Assembly (NCBI GenBank): GCA_903642325.1 | Contig: CAHJWM010000020.1 | Coordinates: 1 to 64,000 of the forward strand | Source of the DNA: Myxococcales bacterium | Lineage (GTDB): Bacteria > Myxococcota_A > Polyangia > Polyangiales > Polyangiaceae | Length of the DNA: 64,000 bases | Reading direction: 5' to 3' | Shown here: one piece after another, positions 45,308-50,845 of the stretch | Layout: every line of letters starts with the position of its first letter | Position numbering within the stretch: the first letter of the stretch is position 1 | Program-made: the position numbers and the translations under genes | Notes under the pieces: generated by a model | Databases searched by the model: none | The model's input: only the letters and a program-made list of their open reading frames with translations | Told to the model about the DNA's origin: nothing

Positions 45308-47236
45308 ATGCTTCAGCGCATGCAGAAGGCTTTGGAACGCATTACTCTCGAGACCGAAAAGCTCGTGGGCAAAGCCGTGAATCGCGTTTGGCCGCTGTAC
45401 CAGAAGTACAACGAGCGCTTTCCGGGCGGTCGCCTGCAGCCCAAGTGGGCCCCGGCGCCGCTCCTGCGCAAGAAAGAACGAACGAAGCCCGAGCTCGGCT
45501 GGCCGCGGCGCACGGACTCACTTTGTCCGCAGTGCGTGAGAGAAGTGAGGGGCGCAGTGCTCTCCGGCGAACGAGATCTGCAGGCGTTCGTGGAGGGAAA
45601 TCCCGGAGAAATAAAAGCCGACATCATCGAGCGCGACGGGCAAATACTGATGGTCAAGAGTTGCCCCAAGCACGGCGCCTTCGAAGACGTGATGAGCGTC
45701 GATCCCGCATTCATGGCCCGCATCGAGGGCTTATTTCCCGGCCGCGATTTCGAAGCGCCCAAGACCAAGCTCCGCAACCACGGGAGCTCGACGATCAAGT
45801 ACGGGCGCGGCTCGGTGCTCACCGTCGATCTGACGAACCGCTGCAATATGATGTGCGACCCATGCTTCATGGACGCCAATCAGGTCGGCTTCGTGCACGA
45901 GCTCGAGTGGGTGGACATCAAACAGATTTTGGACGACAGCTTGAACATCAAGCCGCGTCGTCAATTGAGCGTTCAGTTCTCGGGGGGCGAGCCGACACTC
46001 AGCCCGTTCTTTCTCGACGCGATCAAATACGCCCGAGACGTTGGTTACTTCTGCGTGCAGTGTGCGAGCAATGGCGTGCTGTTCGCGCAGGACCCCGAGC
46101 TGTGCCACGCGGCCAAGCGCGCAGGCCTGCGTCTGTGTTACTTGCAGTTCGACGGTGTCACCAATGCGGCCAATAGCCACCGCAAGGTCGGCAACCTGTT
46201 CGACGTGAAGCTGCGCGCCATCGAGAACCTGGCCGCCGCCGGTATCGATGTCGTGCTCGTCGTTACCGTAGTGAACGGCATCAACAATGAGCAGGTAGGC
46301 CCCATCGTCAGGTTCGCGATCGACAATGCGGACAAGGTTACCGTCGTTTCATTTCAACCGGTCAGCTTTACGGGCCGGGACGAAGAAGTGAGTGATGATC
46401 GCCGCCAGCGCGAGCGCTACACGCTCAGCCATCTGGTTCACGATCTACACGACCAGCTGGGGGTTACCGAGCCCATGCGAGACTGGTTTCCGCTTTCGGC
46501 GATGAATCCATTCAGTGACGTGGTCGATCTCCTGCTCGGCCAAAGCGCGGAATTTGGCGCGCTCAAGTGCGGTTGTCATCCCAACTGTGGAATCGGGACC
46601 GCACTGCTCGTGAACAAACGCTCCAAGCAAATGGTGCCCGTGTCTCAGTTCCTGAACCTGGATCAAGTCCTGCTCGACCTCCAAGGCATCGCGGACGCAG
46701 GCCAGACGCGCGCTCAAACCGTTACTGGGATCGCCCTCTCGTTGCTGCGCAATTTCGACCCGGAAAAGGCGCCGCCGGGTTACAGCTTCACCGAGTTCGC
46801 GCGTCAATTCCTGAGTCAGATCGGCGCCAATGGCTCGAAAGTCGGCGAGAGCGAGGGGGACGCGCACAAGTTCGAGTGGCGATTCTTATTCGTCGCCGGC
46901 ATGTGGTTTCAGGATCTCTTCAACTACGATTTTAGGCGCACGGAGATGTGCATCATCCCTTACGGTACCCAGATGGGCGAGATTTCCTTTTGCGCCTACA
47001 ATACCGGGGTTGGCTTTCGCCAAATCATCGAGAAGATGAAGAAGACCGCGACCATTGCCGAGTGGTACAAAACGCGCGGTCGGCACCCGGTTTACGCCAA
47101 GAATCAGCATTTGCCCTTGGCGGACGGCCCGCTCAGCGTGGTGGTTCGGCCTGACACGCCCAACTCGGCCGGCGCGCTCGCGCCGAGCTTCGGTGAAGCG
47201 AGTGACGGTCGGAAGCGACTCCGTCTCGTATCGTGA
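45308..47236 (+). CDS. Radical SAM enzyme of the Tes/MJ0619 (tetraether synthase) family
   Basis: 642 residues from ATG 45308. N-terminal rubredoxin-like site: CPQC (Cys73, Cys76) and CPKHG (Cys119). SAM cluster motif C-x3-C-x2-C: Cys179, Cys183, Cys186 in NRCNMMCDPCF, followed by FSGGEPTLS. Auxiliary cluster ligands: CGCHPNCG (Cys421, 423, 427) and RRTEMC with FCAYN (Cys548, Cys562). The segment FNYDFRRTEMCIIPYG with FCAYN is a hallmark of the MJ0619 family. The archaeal Tes enzyme of this family joins lipid tails by C-C bond formation between methyl groups. Related bacterial enzymes are implicated in membrane-spanning lipids, so a lipid substrate is likely but unproven. Possible alternative: a pterin or other methylase in the same broad family. 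Confidence 0.85.
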   Translation: MLQRMQKALERITLETEKLVGKAVNRVWPLYQKYNERFPGGRLQPKWAPAPLLRKKERTKPELGWPRRTDSLCPQCVREVRGAVLSGERDLQAFVEGNPGEIKADIIERDGQILMVKSCPKHGAFEDVMSVDPAFMARIEGLFPGRDFEAPKTKLRNHGSSTIKYGRGSVLTVDLTNRCNMMCDPCFMDANQVGFVHELEWVDIKQILDDSLNIKPRRQLSVQFSGGEPTLSPFFLDAIKYARDVGYFCVQCASNGVLFAQDPELCHAAKRAGLRLCYLQFDGVTNAANSHRKVGNLFDVKLRAIENLAAAGIDVVLVVTVVNGINNEQVGPIVRFAIDNADKVTVVSFQPVSFTGRDEEVSDDRRQRERYTLSHLVHDLHDQLGVTEPMRDWFPLSAMNPFSDVVDLLLGQSAEFGALKCGCHPNCGIGTALLVNKRSKQMVPVSQFLNLDQVLLDLQGIADAGQTRAQTVTGIALSLLRNFDPEKAPPGYSFTEFARQFLSQIGANGSKVGESEGDAHKFEWRFLFVAGMWFQDLFNYDFRRTEMCIIPYGTQMGEISFCAYNTGVGFRQIIEKMKKTATIAEWYKTRGRHPVYAKNQHLPLADGPLSVVVRPDTPNSAGALAPSFGEASDGRKRLRLVS

Positions 47237-47282: not shown

Positions 47283-48326
47283 CTAAAGATCGCGCAGATC
47301 GACCGGGCCGTCGAACGGAGGACTCTGCATGCGGCCGAAGTCGCAGAGCCGAGCGCCGCGTAGGCTGCCCTCGAGCGCGTGGCGGCGCGCGGCGCTGCCC
47401 GCGAAGGCGCAGCTCGTGATCATCGGCCGGAGAGCGCTCCAGGCCTGCGTGGCATCGTCGGTCGCCTGCACGTGTAAGTTGCGCCCGACCGGGGGCAGTA
47501 ACCAACGTTCGCTCGTGCTGACAAAACCGAGCCCCGCCGCGAAGACGGCTCCGCTGAAGCTCGCGCTGGCACAGTAGGTCGTCACTTCGGCTAATTCTTG
47601 GTCTGTCATATGACCACGCGGCACGGCTCGTTCTGCGTGCTCCAGCTCTAAAGCGATCGCTCGGGCCACGTCGCGCGCGAGCTCGGGGCCCGCTTCGACG
47701 AGCAGAACGCGCGGGCTCAAGCAGCCGCGTTGATCGAACAGCACGATGTCCTCGGCCAGGCGTGGGACGAGCTCGGCGAGCGCCTGTTCCGATAACGGGC
47801 CGTGAATCACGCCCACCCCAAACCCCGAGCCGTGACCATGAAACGCAACGCCGGGAGGCAGGGTTACGGCGATGTCCTGCAACGTCGAGTCGCGGCCATA
47901 TGCCCACACTCTGTCGCCAGCATGCGGAGTCAGCTCGCTCACGAGCTGAAAAGAGTTCGGCGCGCCGCTCGAGAGCAACTCCGCCATGTCCGGCTCTCGG
48001 CGAGAGGCGCGCACCTGCACGCGTTCGGAAGCCGCAAGGGCAATGGCGATGGCGCGATGCGCCGCTACGAAGACATTGGCCGAGAGCAGGACGTGGGCCA
48101 CCTGCGCGCTTGGGGTAGAGCGGATCAAGGATTCGATTTCTGCCTCGGAAGGCGCGGTCTCCAAGCAGCGCGTCAGCGCCAGCTCGACGCCCGCCGCGGA
48201 TAAGCCGCTCGATGCCTGCAAGCGCCTGCGCGCCGTCTGCCCGAGCTCGGAATGCGGATCGGCGATCTTGCGCGCGGACACGAGCAGCGGTTCGAGCCGA
48301 GCCCGACGAGCGTCTGAGTTACTCAT
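47283..48326 (-). CDS. LuxC-type acyl-CoA reductase
   Basis: 347 residues from ATG 48326, overlapping the LuxE-type stop by 4 bp. The fold is the aldehyde-dehydrogenase-like one of LuxC: YGRDSTLQDIAVTLPPGVAF, FHGHGSGFGVGVI and the catalytic Cys202 in DIVLFDQRGCLSPR. LuxC accepts an acyl group from LuxE or acyl-CoA and reduces it with NADPH to an aldehyde. Shorter than Vibrio LuxC (about 480). Third gene of the aminotransferase-LuxE-LuxC operon. No luxAB is nearby, so the aldehyde has another use. Confidence 0.85.
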   Translation of the reverse strand: MSNSDARRARLEPLLVSARKIADPHSELGQTARRRLQASSGLSAAGVELALTRCLETAPSEAEIESLIRSTPSAQVAHVLLSANVFVAAHRAIAIALAASERVQVRASRREPDMAELLSSGAPNSFQLVSELTPHAGDRVWAYGRDSTLQDIAVTLPPGVAFHGHGSGFGVGVIHGPLSEQALAELVPRLAEDIVLFDQRGCLSPRVLLVEAGPELARDVARAIALELEHAERAVPRGHMTDQELAEVTTYCASASFSGAVFAAGLGFVSTSERWLLPPVGRNLHVQATDDATQAWSALRPMITSCAFAGSAARRHALEGSLRGARLCDFGRMQSPPFDGPVDLRDL

Positions 48327-49435
48327 CGATGCCCGGTCATGAATTCTTCTACCGCTAGTGAGCAACCACGCTGGGGCGCGCCCGGAGCGCGCCCCAGAAG
48401 CTCGACGCCACCCGCGACCCGCCGCACGCGGTCCTGAGTTTGAACGGCCACCGCAGAATCCACGTTACCCAAGTCGATCACGCGTGCGATGCCGACTTCG
48501 CCCGCCGCCACCGGAAGCAGGGTGACTGGATCGACCGAGAGCACGCGCAGCCAGGCGGGCTCGTAGTACACGCCCGGGGCGCCCTGCAGTTGGCTCTGAA
48601 GGGCGGTGCCGGGCACCGTGGCTTCATACAGCTGACTCGTGAGCTCGGTCATGCCGTATTCGCTCACGATTTGCGCCTGTGCAATGCCGAACGCGGCGGC
48701 GACGCGAGCGCGTAGCGTGCTGGCCTCTACTTCTCGGGTTTTACCCTTGAAGCCCCCCGTTTGCATGACGACCGTCGAAGTGGGCAGCGGCAGCGCCCGC
48801 CCCTCGAGCGCGTCGAGCAAAGCCACCAAGGCAAAGGAGGTCGCGAGCACCAGTAATGACTCTTCGCGCTCCTGCGCTCGGAGCGCCGCTCGCGCCAGCC
48901 CGGCCACGTCCACCGACGCGTCAGCCATCAACCAGCGTGCGGCCGTGCGCACTTCGAAGTCGCCGCGCTCTTCGAAGTCGACCATGAACATCGCCATCAT
49001 CTGACCGAGCGAAGAGCTAGCCGGAGCATCGAGCTCAGGCGCTAGTGCGACCACGTGGCGCGGCCCGGGGACGGCCAGCAGCGCGGCACGACCGAAGCCC
49101 AGTGCCAGCGCGCGATACGTGTCGAGCGTGCGCATGGCATGTACGCCGCGCGCGCCTCCCGTCGTGCCGCTGGTGAGGAACCGAGCGCGGTCCTCGCTCT
49201 CTGGGTGCACGGCGACGCGAGCCATCCTAAAAGCGTCGCAGGGCACGCCCGGGATGCATTCGACCGCCTTGAGCGGATTTTGCTCGCGGGCGAGCAAGCG
49301 CGCGAAACCCGGCGAAAACTCGGCTTGAAATGCGGCGATGTCCAGAGCTAGCTCCTCGAAGCTCCGGCTTCGGTCGCCCGCTGCGAAGCTCCGCACCGCC
49401 GCATGCAGCGCATCCGATCGAACGTTTCGCGTCAT
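48323..49435 (-). CDS. LuxE-type acyl-protein synthetase
   Basis: 370 residues from ATG 49435, overlapping the aminotransferase stop by 4 bp. Adenylate-forming motif FLTSGTTGGARG near 87-98, VMQTGGFKGKTRE, VSEYGMTELTSQLYE, and near the C-terminus RGCSLAVEE with Cys358, the expected acyl-thioester residue. It activates a carboxylic acid with ATP to acyl-AMP and then carries it on Cys to the reductase. Sits between the aminotransferase and LuxC-type genes. Confidence 0.87.
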   Translation of the reverse strand: MTRNVRSDALHAAVRSFAAGDRSRSFEELALDIAAFQAEFSPGFARLLAREQNPLKAVECIPGVPCDAFRMARVAVHPESEDRARFLTSGTTGGARGVHAMRTLDTYRALALGFGRAALLAVPGPRHVVALAPELDAPASSSLGQMMAMFMVDFEERGDFEVRTAARWLMADASVDVAGLARAALRAQEREESLLVLATSFALVALLDALEGRALPLPTSTVVMQTGGFKGKTREVEASTLRARVAAAFGIAQAQIVSEYGMTELTSQLYEATVPGTALQSQLQGAPGVYYEPAWLRVLSVDPVTLLPVAAGEVGIARVIDLGNVDSAVAVQTQDRVRRVAGGVELLGRAPGAPQRGCSLAVEEFMTGHR

Positions 49436-50790
49436 GCTCCGAGCGCTCCCACGCACGGCACCAGCGCGTCCACGAATCCGTCCAGCAAGGCCTCGCCAAG
49501 CGTGAGCGGTGGGGTCAAAACCAAGACCTCGCGCCGCCCCCCGCCGGTGGAGGTGATGTAACCGCACTCCAGTAGCTTACTCGCCAACTGCGTCGCGCGC
49601 CCCGGTCGATCGCCGAGATCGATGGCGAGCATGAGCCCCACGCCACGCACCGAGATCTTCGAGAAGCGCGCGAGCCGGGCTTCGAGCATGCTCCGAAGCT
49701 TGGCCCCTAGCCGTTCCGACCGCTCCGGCAGATGCTCGCGTGAAATGAGATCGAGGCTGGCCAAGGCCGTGGCGGACGACAATGCCGCGCCCGCGAACGT
49801 CGAAGTGTGCACGACCTCTGGCTCGCGGCGCCACGCTTCCAACACCGCTCCACGCCCTATCAATGCGCTGACCGGCAGCCCCCCACCAAGCCCTTTGCCA
49901 AGGCAGACGAGGTCGGGCGTGAAGTCCGAGCGCATCGAAAACAGCATTTTCCCCGAGCGGCCGAGACCGGTCCAAATTTCATCGGCAATGCAAAGCACGC
50001 CAAACTCGCGCGCCAATTTGCCAATCTCCGGCAAGAAGGCGGGCGGCGGCACCAGCACGCCGCCGCGGCCCAAAACCGGTTCGACCAGCACGGCGCCGAT
50101 TTGACCGGTGACGAGCACTGCCCGCGCTTGCAGAAGCACGCGATCCAAATCGTCGTGCTGAGCTGGATAGTCAACGAAGGCGACGTGCGGATTGAGTTGA
50201 GCCGTAAACGGAGTGCGGTAACTCGCGCGCAGACCGCAGGCGGCGAGCGGGGCATGGCTCAAGCCGTGATATGCGCCACCGAAAGCAATCACGCCCGGCT
50301 TGCCGGTGAAAAGCAGGGCCGTCTTCAAGGCGGCGGTCACCGCGTCCGCGCCCGACTGACCCAACATCACGCGTGCGCTCGGATCTGGATGGAGGGCGGC
50401 CAAACGCTCGAGCAGCGCTACCTTGGCGTCGGCCGGGAACACGTCCCCCAGCGCCATGAGCAGTCGATGGCTCTGCAAATCGAGTACCCGCAGGATGCTG
50501 GGGTGCGAATGACCGACGAGCATGGCGCCGAAGCCGGCGGCAAAGTCGACGTAGCGATTGGCGTCGACATCGACCACGTTCGAGCCCTTCGCGCTCGCAT
50601 ACACGATGCCTACGGGCGGAGCTCGCAAATCGCCCGGTTCATGCCGCGGTTTCGCCCCCATCGGCGCGCTGCGATGGGCATGCCGTACGAGCCAGCTGCG
50701 CGATGACGGCCCCGGGGGGCGGCTTTTGATTTCGGGCAGGTCTTGGCCCGGTACGAGCTCGACCGGTGGCGGGATCTCGCTGAAGCTCAT
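49432..50790 (-). CDS. Class III PLP-dependent aminotransferase
   Basis: 452 residues from ATG 50790; a GTG at 50814 is also in frame. GVIAFGGAYHG (phosphate-binding and aromatic stacking region), Asp270 in CIADEIWTGLGRSG and the PLP lysine 299 in LVCLGKGLGGGLP. Fold type I, class III (omega-amino donor enzymes, GABA or ornithine type). First gene of a three-gene unit with 4-bp overlaps. In this context it could aminate the aldehyde made by the LuxE/LuxC pair, giving a terminal amine; this is inference. Confidence 0.88.
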   Translation of the reverse strand: MSFSEIPPPVELVPGQDLPEIKSRPPGPSSRSWLVRHAHRSAPMGAKPRHEPGDLRAPPVGIVYASAKGSNVVDVDANRYVDFAAGFGAMLVGHSHPSILRVLDLQSHRLLMALGDVFPADAKVALLERLAALHPDPSARVMLGQSGADAVTAALKTALLFTGKPGVIAFGGAYHGLSHAPLAACGLRASYRTPFTAQLNPHVAFVDYPAQHDDLDRVLLQARAVLVTGQIGAVLVEPVLGRGGVLVPPPAFLPEIGKLAREFGVLCIADEIWTGLGRSGKMLFSMRSDFTPDLVCLGKGLGGGLPVSALIGRGAVLEAWRREPEVVHTSTFAGAALSSATALASLDLISREHLPERSERLGAKLRSMLEARLARFSKISVRGVGLMLAIDLGDRPGRATQLASKLLECGYITSTGGGRREVLVLTPPLTLGEALLDGFVDALVPCVGALGA

Positions 50791-50845
50791 GCGCGCAGAG
50801 TACGCGCTTACCACGAAATCTAACGCGTGACGGGCTATAACGGGC

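Follow-up and report, generated by a model that had tools for sequence, protein, structure and literature searches.

The stretch of DNA analyzed here, 64,000 nucleotides long and hereafter called the window, carries at 45308-47236 on its forward strand a coding sequence for a Tes-related radical SAM protein of 642 amino acids. The reading frame opens with an ATG at 45308 and closes with a stop codon at 47234-47236; translation could equally well begin at a second in-frame ATG, at 45320, and no clear ribosome-binding site was seen before either of the two. The host genome holds a single copy of the gene. Its neighbors in the window encode RuvC, LolA, a metallophosphoesterase, LuxC, a weakly matching LuxE, a class III aminotransferase, and an FHA-GGDEF protein, and an Rfam scan of the window returned no match. 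The LuxC acyl-CoA reductase, the weak LuxE acyl-protein synthetase, and the class III aminotransferase stand in a row at 47283-50814 on the reverse strand and possibly form an acyl-to-aldehyde or amine cassette. As members of a conserved operon these three were set aside, being absent from other loci of the gene and lying on the opposite strand. Across 80 loci, no conserved operon was found around the gene, apart from neighbors that are local to particular lineages.

This is a real and conserved radical SAM gene, with matches far beyond chance and relatives of 56-78% identity in two phyla. Pfam recovers a radical SAM domain (E = 1.8e-16) and an N-terminal rubredoxin-like HMPTM zinc ribbon (1e-13), and the NCBIfam Tes model NF045702 aligns over nearly its entire length (model positions 2-482 of 486; E = 2.9e-97; 326.3 bits). 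By sequence, the nearest solved relative is Tes/MJ0619 (PDB 7tol; 231 bits, E = 1.5e-67), and the second-best PDB match, MoaA, follows at E = 9.4e-5. The preliminary description had taken the protein for a bacterial homolog of the archaeal tetraether synthase (Tes) family, and sequence, fold, and phylogeny all uphold that homology. The near-full-length profile match nevertheless misses the curated cut-off of NF045702 (450 bits); with one of the four metal sites gone and a long branch of its own, the protein should not be filed as Tes proper. On the TrsS model NF045646 it scores 208.8 bits, again under the cut-off (490 bits). The name HMPTM recalls hydroxymethylpterin methylase and might suggest that the lipid activity has been lost and that a pterin, a cofactor, or a peptide is modified instead. 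We consider this improbable: HMPTM is the old annotation of MJ0619, judged incorrect from its structure (PMC9433317), and the predicted model of our protein spans the whole Tes architecture.

Predicted fold and metal sites

An AlphaFold model of the 642-residue protein, built from 48 sequences comprising the window protein and loci from the contig scan (pLDDT 80.9, pTM 0.85), superimposes on Tes (7TOM) with a Z score of 39.7 and a deviation of 2.3 Å over 479 residues. The second-best fold match is MoaA, at Z 21, and no match other than 7TOL/7TOM spanned the whole protein. The comparison with Tes that the preliminary description had called for thus covers the entire architecture; the aligned range takes in the radical SAM core, the C-terminal domain, and the helical part (lipid pockets in MJ0619). 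The model is weak near residues 187-193 and 565-568 and over the last 26 residues. Secondary structure and alignment point to a long N-terminal helix, residues 2-37 (45311-45418, forward strand, as are all features below), that is absent from MJ0619 and may possibly serve as a membrane-surface anchor.

In MJ0619, a rubredoxin iron is bound by C9, C12, C33, and H36, and an N-terminal [Fe4S4]N cluster by C73, C77, C80, and a histidine; besides its radical SAM cluster, the enzyme has a C-terminal [Fe4S4] cluster with the labile ligand Met439 (PMC9433317). Ligands were compared in an alignment of the window protein with 30 close and 18 distant relatives and with MJ0619. The preliminary description had credited the protein with the full cysteine layout of Tes/MJ0619. 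The motifs that it listed (CPQC...CPKHG, CX3CX2C, CGCHPNCG, EMC, and FCAYN) are indeed present, but the layout is not the full one: in the alignment, three of the four MJ0619 metal sites are kept in the clade and the N-terminal [Fe4S4] site is absent. The rubredoxin-like site (45524-45673), identified by alignment with the ligands named in PMC9433317, consists of C73, C76, C119, and H122, all invariant in the clade, with a longer loop than that of MJ0619. In the region of the lost N-terminal cluster (45749-45802), the MJ0619 segment GCPYDCGLCPNH aligns with HGSSTIKYGRG in the window protein, and the three cysteines and one histidine of this cluster are replaced in every clade member inspected.

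Both Pfam and the alignment place the radical SAM CX3CX2C motif at C179, C183, and C186 (45842-45865), and an FQPVSFTGR loop (46352-46378) aligns with the adenosine-binding residues Gln268, Ser271, Thr273, and Arg275 of MJ0619. Residues contacting 5'-deoxyadenosine and its waters (contacts from PMC9433317) are mostly kept in the clade, with Arg210 of MJ0619 mostly replaced by lysine. Four further motifs were located by alignment: CGCHPNCG, residues 421-428 (46568-46591); GMWFQD, residues 531-536 (46898-46915); EMCIIPY, residues 546-552, with the ligand C548 (46943-46963); and FCAYN, residues 561-565, with C562, a C-terminal cluster ligand (46988-47002). C427, which corresponds to a Tes cysteine, C548, C562, Met532, and Tyr552 are conserved across the clade; Met532 is equivalent to the labile Met439 of MJ0619, with altered flanks (HF.M to WF.Q), and Tyr552 to Tyr459. 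From this conservation, we infer that C427, C548, and C562 are the ligands of the C-terminal [Fe4S4] cluster. The CGC preceding HPNCG is invariant in the clade; its first cysteine, C421, lies outside the Tes pattern, and its second is shared with some acidobacterial Tes (locus L192). Of the 112 invariant Tes columns, the clade retains 72 and differs at 30, the changed ones including residues that adjoin the C-terminal cluster. A further 59 residues are near-invariant in the clade and absent from the Tes rows, among them W533, Q535, and P551, which lie close to Met532 and Tyr552.

A distinct clade in Polyangia and Acidobacteriota

The relatives were sorted into group A, the clade of the window protein; group B, the TrsS-like proteins; and group C, which comprises the true Tes sequences that pass the curated cut-off. 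Scores on the Tes model are about 265-365 bits for group A and 472-619 bits for group C, whereas the similarity of group B is mainly confined to model positions 1-323. Group A forms one clade (support 100/100), its stem measuring 2.3 changes per site, and joins Tes, away from group B, with support of 100/100; placement in a different radical SAM clade, which the preliminary description had named as a possible refutation, is hence not what the tree shows. Within Tes, group A is nested beside the acidobacterial sequences (97/94), and the alternative placement as sister to all Tes is unrejected (AU p = 0.113).

Group A shares with Tes/MJ0619 (7TOL, 7TOM; NF045702) the whole fold, the rubredoxin site, the radical SAM cluster, the cysteine ligands of the C-terminal [Fe4S4] cluster with the accompanying Met and Tyr, and the adenosine-binding residues. 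It departs from Tes in its identity of about 30%, the loss of the N-terminal [Fe4S4] ligands, the extra invariant CGC, the extra N-terminal helix, the longer rubredoxin loop, the score below the cut-off, and the long stem. Against MJ0619, group A scores about 29-34% identity and 200-260 bits, a range that group B overlaps. The acidobacterial Tes of group C are nearest to group A in the tree and are sometimes encoded by adjacent genes, but unlike group A they retain the N-terminal cluster, show 40-48% identity to MJ0619, and are patchy in distribution. The TrsS-like proteins (NF045646) share the rubredoxin-like and radical SAM regions with group A; their match to Tes lies mainly in its N-terminal two thirds, they diverge at the C-terminal cluster, and in the tree they make up a clade of their own. 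Thermotoga maritima, a maker of diabolic acid, gave no match to the Tes model at 1e-30. By description, the bacterial membrane-spanning lipid synthase (Mss) resembles group A in its proposed tail coupling and in the Tes-like architecture modeled for it in a 2026 paper. A divergent form of group A, of 43-46% identity, occurs in a few Acidobacteriota genomes (G694:C61, G697:C159, G687:C214), sometimes as a second copy.

A contig scan recovered at least 582 relatives of the window protein. Among the best 80 of these, sequences from Polyangiaceae and other Polyangia, including Sorangium cellulosum, Polyangium fumosum, Minicystis rosea, and Byssovorax, are 61-76% identical, and those from Acidobacteriota 56-63%. 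The closest named relatives are Polyangiaceae MAGs, followed by Sorangium, Polyangium, and Minicystis, in agreement with the polyangial origin claimed earlier. The acidobacterial labels among the best 80 are Acidobacteriaceae, Bryobacteraceae, Blastocatellia, Chloracidobacterium, and Luteitalea, which we take to represent subdivisions 1, 3, 4, and 6 (Blastocatellia and Chloracidobacterium together standing for one of them), and a single MAG labeled Holophagales, a group not known to make iso-diabolic acid. The gene is thus not an isolated case: it is present in 24 of 59 genomes related to the host and, as group A, in about 100 of the 120 genomes of one acidobacterial family, identified through the submitter label of one member (Acidobacteriaceae). 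At 1e-60, 105 of these 120 genomes give a match, mostly to group A and at 55-60% identity; group C occurs in about 15 of them. Overall, 34 of 297 Acidobacteriota genomes have a true Tes, and no Myxococcota genome among 284 has one above 450 bits. Among 27 checked genomes that contain named loci, 16 have group A as their sole Tes relative at E ≤ 1e-30, two of the 16 giving partial matches on the Tes model. In the acidobacterial family, 13 genomes have both groups, and in 7 of them the group A gene and a true Tes gene are no more than 12 kb apart; at locus L192 (8818-13001, minus strand), the group A gene stands about 245 bp upstream of true Tes on the same strand. This proximity may be functional, or it may be left over from an ancient duplication.

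A candidate reaction on lipid tails

Iso-diabolic acid is a likely precursor of the brGDGTs, which underlie soil palaeothermometers. It has been found in Acidobacteria of subdivisions 1, 3, 4, and 6 and accounts for 20-40% of total fatty acids in cultures of subdivisions 1 and 3 (PMC13274423), and the acidobacterial enzyme that makes it has been described as still unknown (PMC10087280). The family of bacterial Tes homologs is itself not new, being already reported in 2022 by Zeng et al., who counted 456 of them and suggested a role in brGDGT synthesis (PMC8941075); according to later work, their function is unconfirmed (PMC11868695). In the open literature we found no prior description of the group A subfamily, its lost cluster, its near-universality in one acidobacterial family, or its occurrence in Polyangia. 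Our best inference, toward which we lean without great assurance, is that group A enzymes join bacterial acyl tails through a carbon-carbon bond and that the clade is a candidate iso-diabolic acid synthase.

The enzyme would be a soluble or peripheral radical SAM protein, from a clade that split from Tes and was then remodeled. By analogy with MJ0619 (PMC9433317), its CX3CX2C cluster would cleave SAM to yield a 5'-deoxyadenosyl radical, which would abstract a hydrogen from the terminus of a lipid tail lodged within a hydrophobic tunnel. Held on the retained C-terminal [Fe4S4] cluster as a carbon-sulfur intermediate, the tail radical would then be attacked by a second radical tail, and the resulting C(sp3)-C(sp3) bond would complete a membrane-spanning chain. 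In Acidobacteriota, the substrates would likely be two iso-C15 acyl tails, which share their terminal isopropyl group with phytanyl tails (PMC8941075), and the product iso-diabolic acid.

The coupling reading draws on the near-full-length profile match, the fold match to 7TOM, the position in the tree, and the retention of the SAM site, the C-terminal cluster ligands, the Met439 and Tyr459 equivalents, and 72 of the 112 columns, although part of this close fit to Tes is expected from common descent alone. It is further favored by the fit of the acidobacterial carrier labels to subdivisions with iso-diabolic acid, by the near-universality in one family, by the genomes in which group A is the sole Tes relative, and by the linkage to true Tes. 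Edaphobacter aggregans, of subdivision 1, produces both iso-diabolic acid and brGDGTs and has one Tes homolog (32% identity, 4e-61; PMC8941075), which plausibly belongs to group A because its identity falls within the range of that group against MJ0619, a range shared with group B. Against coupling speak the score below the Tes cut-off, the lack of a conserved neighborhood in most hosts, the Holophagales label of one carrier MAG, and Solibacter usitatus, which has two Tes homologs and makes brGDGTs but not iso-diabolic acid. A further point against it is that our search of the open literature gave no report of membrane-spanning lipids in Polyangia and, for Sorangium or Polyangium, no usable paper on fatty acids that are dicarboxylic or iso-branched.

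The long stem, the 30 changed columns, and the lost metal site also weigh against coupling, in that they suggest altered chemistry. The lost cluster and the site rebuilt around the C-terminal cluster could then reflect a changed reaction, with radical chemistry on lipid tails leading instead to ring closure, to a cross-link at some other position, or to chain methylation (e.g., at C5 or C6 of iso-diabolic chains). The clade-specific residues beside Met532 and Tyr552 agree with such a change, and in some genomes a neighboring true Tes could perform the coupling. Yet the Tes-type ligands of the C-terminal cluster are all retained, and the 16 genomes with no other Tes relative need no partner Tes. 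We regard a different outcome on the tails as unlikely, albeit a serious contender.

Host contig C56 encodes (locus L196, 695-4396, plus strand) a protein of 1233 amino acids with two BcrAD_BadFG domains (PF01869) and a DUF2229 domain (PF09989), the architecture of the PlsA/Ger ether-lipid enzymes. Such a protein would suit a plain bacterial tetraether synthase that turns diethers into ether-linked lipids of the brGDGT type, as homology would suggest and as has been proposed for the Solibacter and Edaphobacter homologs (PMC8941075, PMC10087280). A PF09989 protein is present in all 24 carriers among the 59 relatives, but also in 26 of the 35 noncarriers (p = 0.008, confounded by clade); this co-occurrence was dismissed as a clue, since the protein is widespread in the order with and without the gene. 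Moreover, a gene that is near-universal in one acidobacterial family sits poorly with brGDGTs detected in few acidobacterial species, and we give this proposal only a small chance.

Returning to the coupling of acyl tails, one widespread gene clade that tracks the groups with iso-diabolic acid opens the way to a direct deletion or expression test. The suggestion in the preliminary description of membrane-spanning or cross-linked fatty acids in Polyangia becomes more concrete through the acidobacterial distribution and stands as a testable prediction: such lipids can be sought in the cultured Sorangium cellulosum, Polyangium fumosum, and Minicystis rosea. The fuller proposal, in which aerobic Acidobacteriota owe their iso-diabolic acid to group A as the missing synthase, a Tes-derived enzyme that does without the N-terminal cluster, and in which the Polyangia hosts, Sorangium and Polyangium included, make spanning lipids that have so far escaped report, is tentative and on balance doubtful. 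Apart from the C-terminal cluster, the auxiliary cofactors of Tes have no assigned role, and a clade that has naturally lost one metal site could help to reveal what that site does in Tes.

Two further observations concern more distant relatives. A search of plasmids with named hosts returned distant haloarchaeal matches alone (26-28% identity); plasmids NZ_CP147842.1 and NZ_CP119560.1 encode such proteins at about 26% identity, and haloarchaea are a group in which Tes homologs have been reported in the absence of GDGTs. In other Myxococcota, TrsS-like radical SAM genes related to Tes stand side by side in sets of two or more (G236:C78, G160:C61, G028:C309, and G198:C67).
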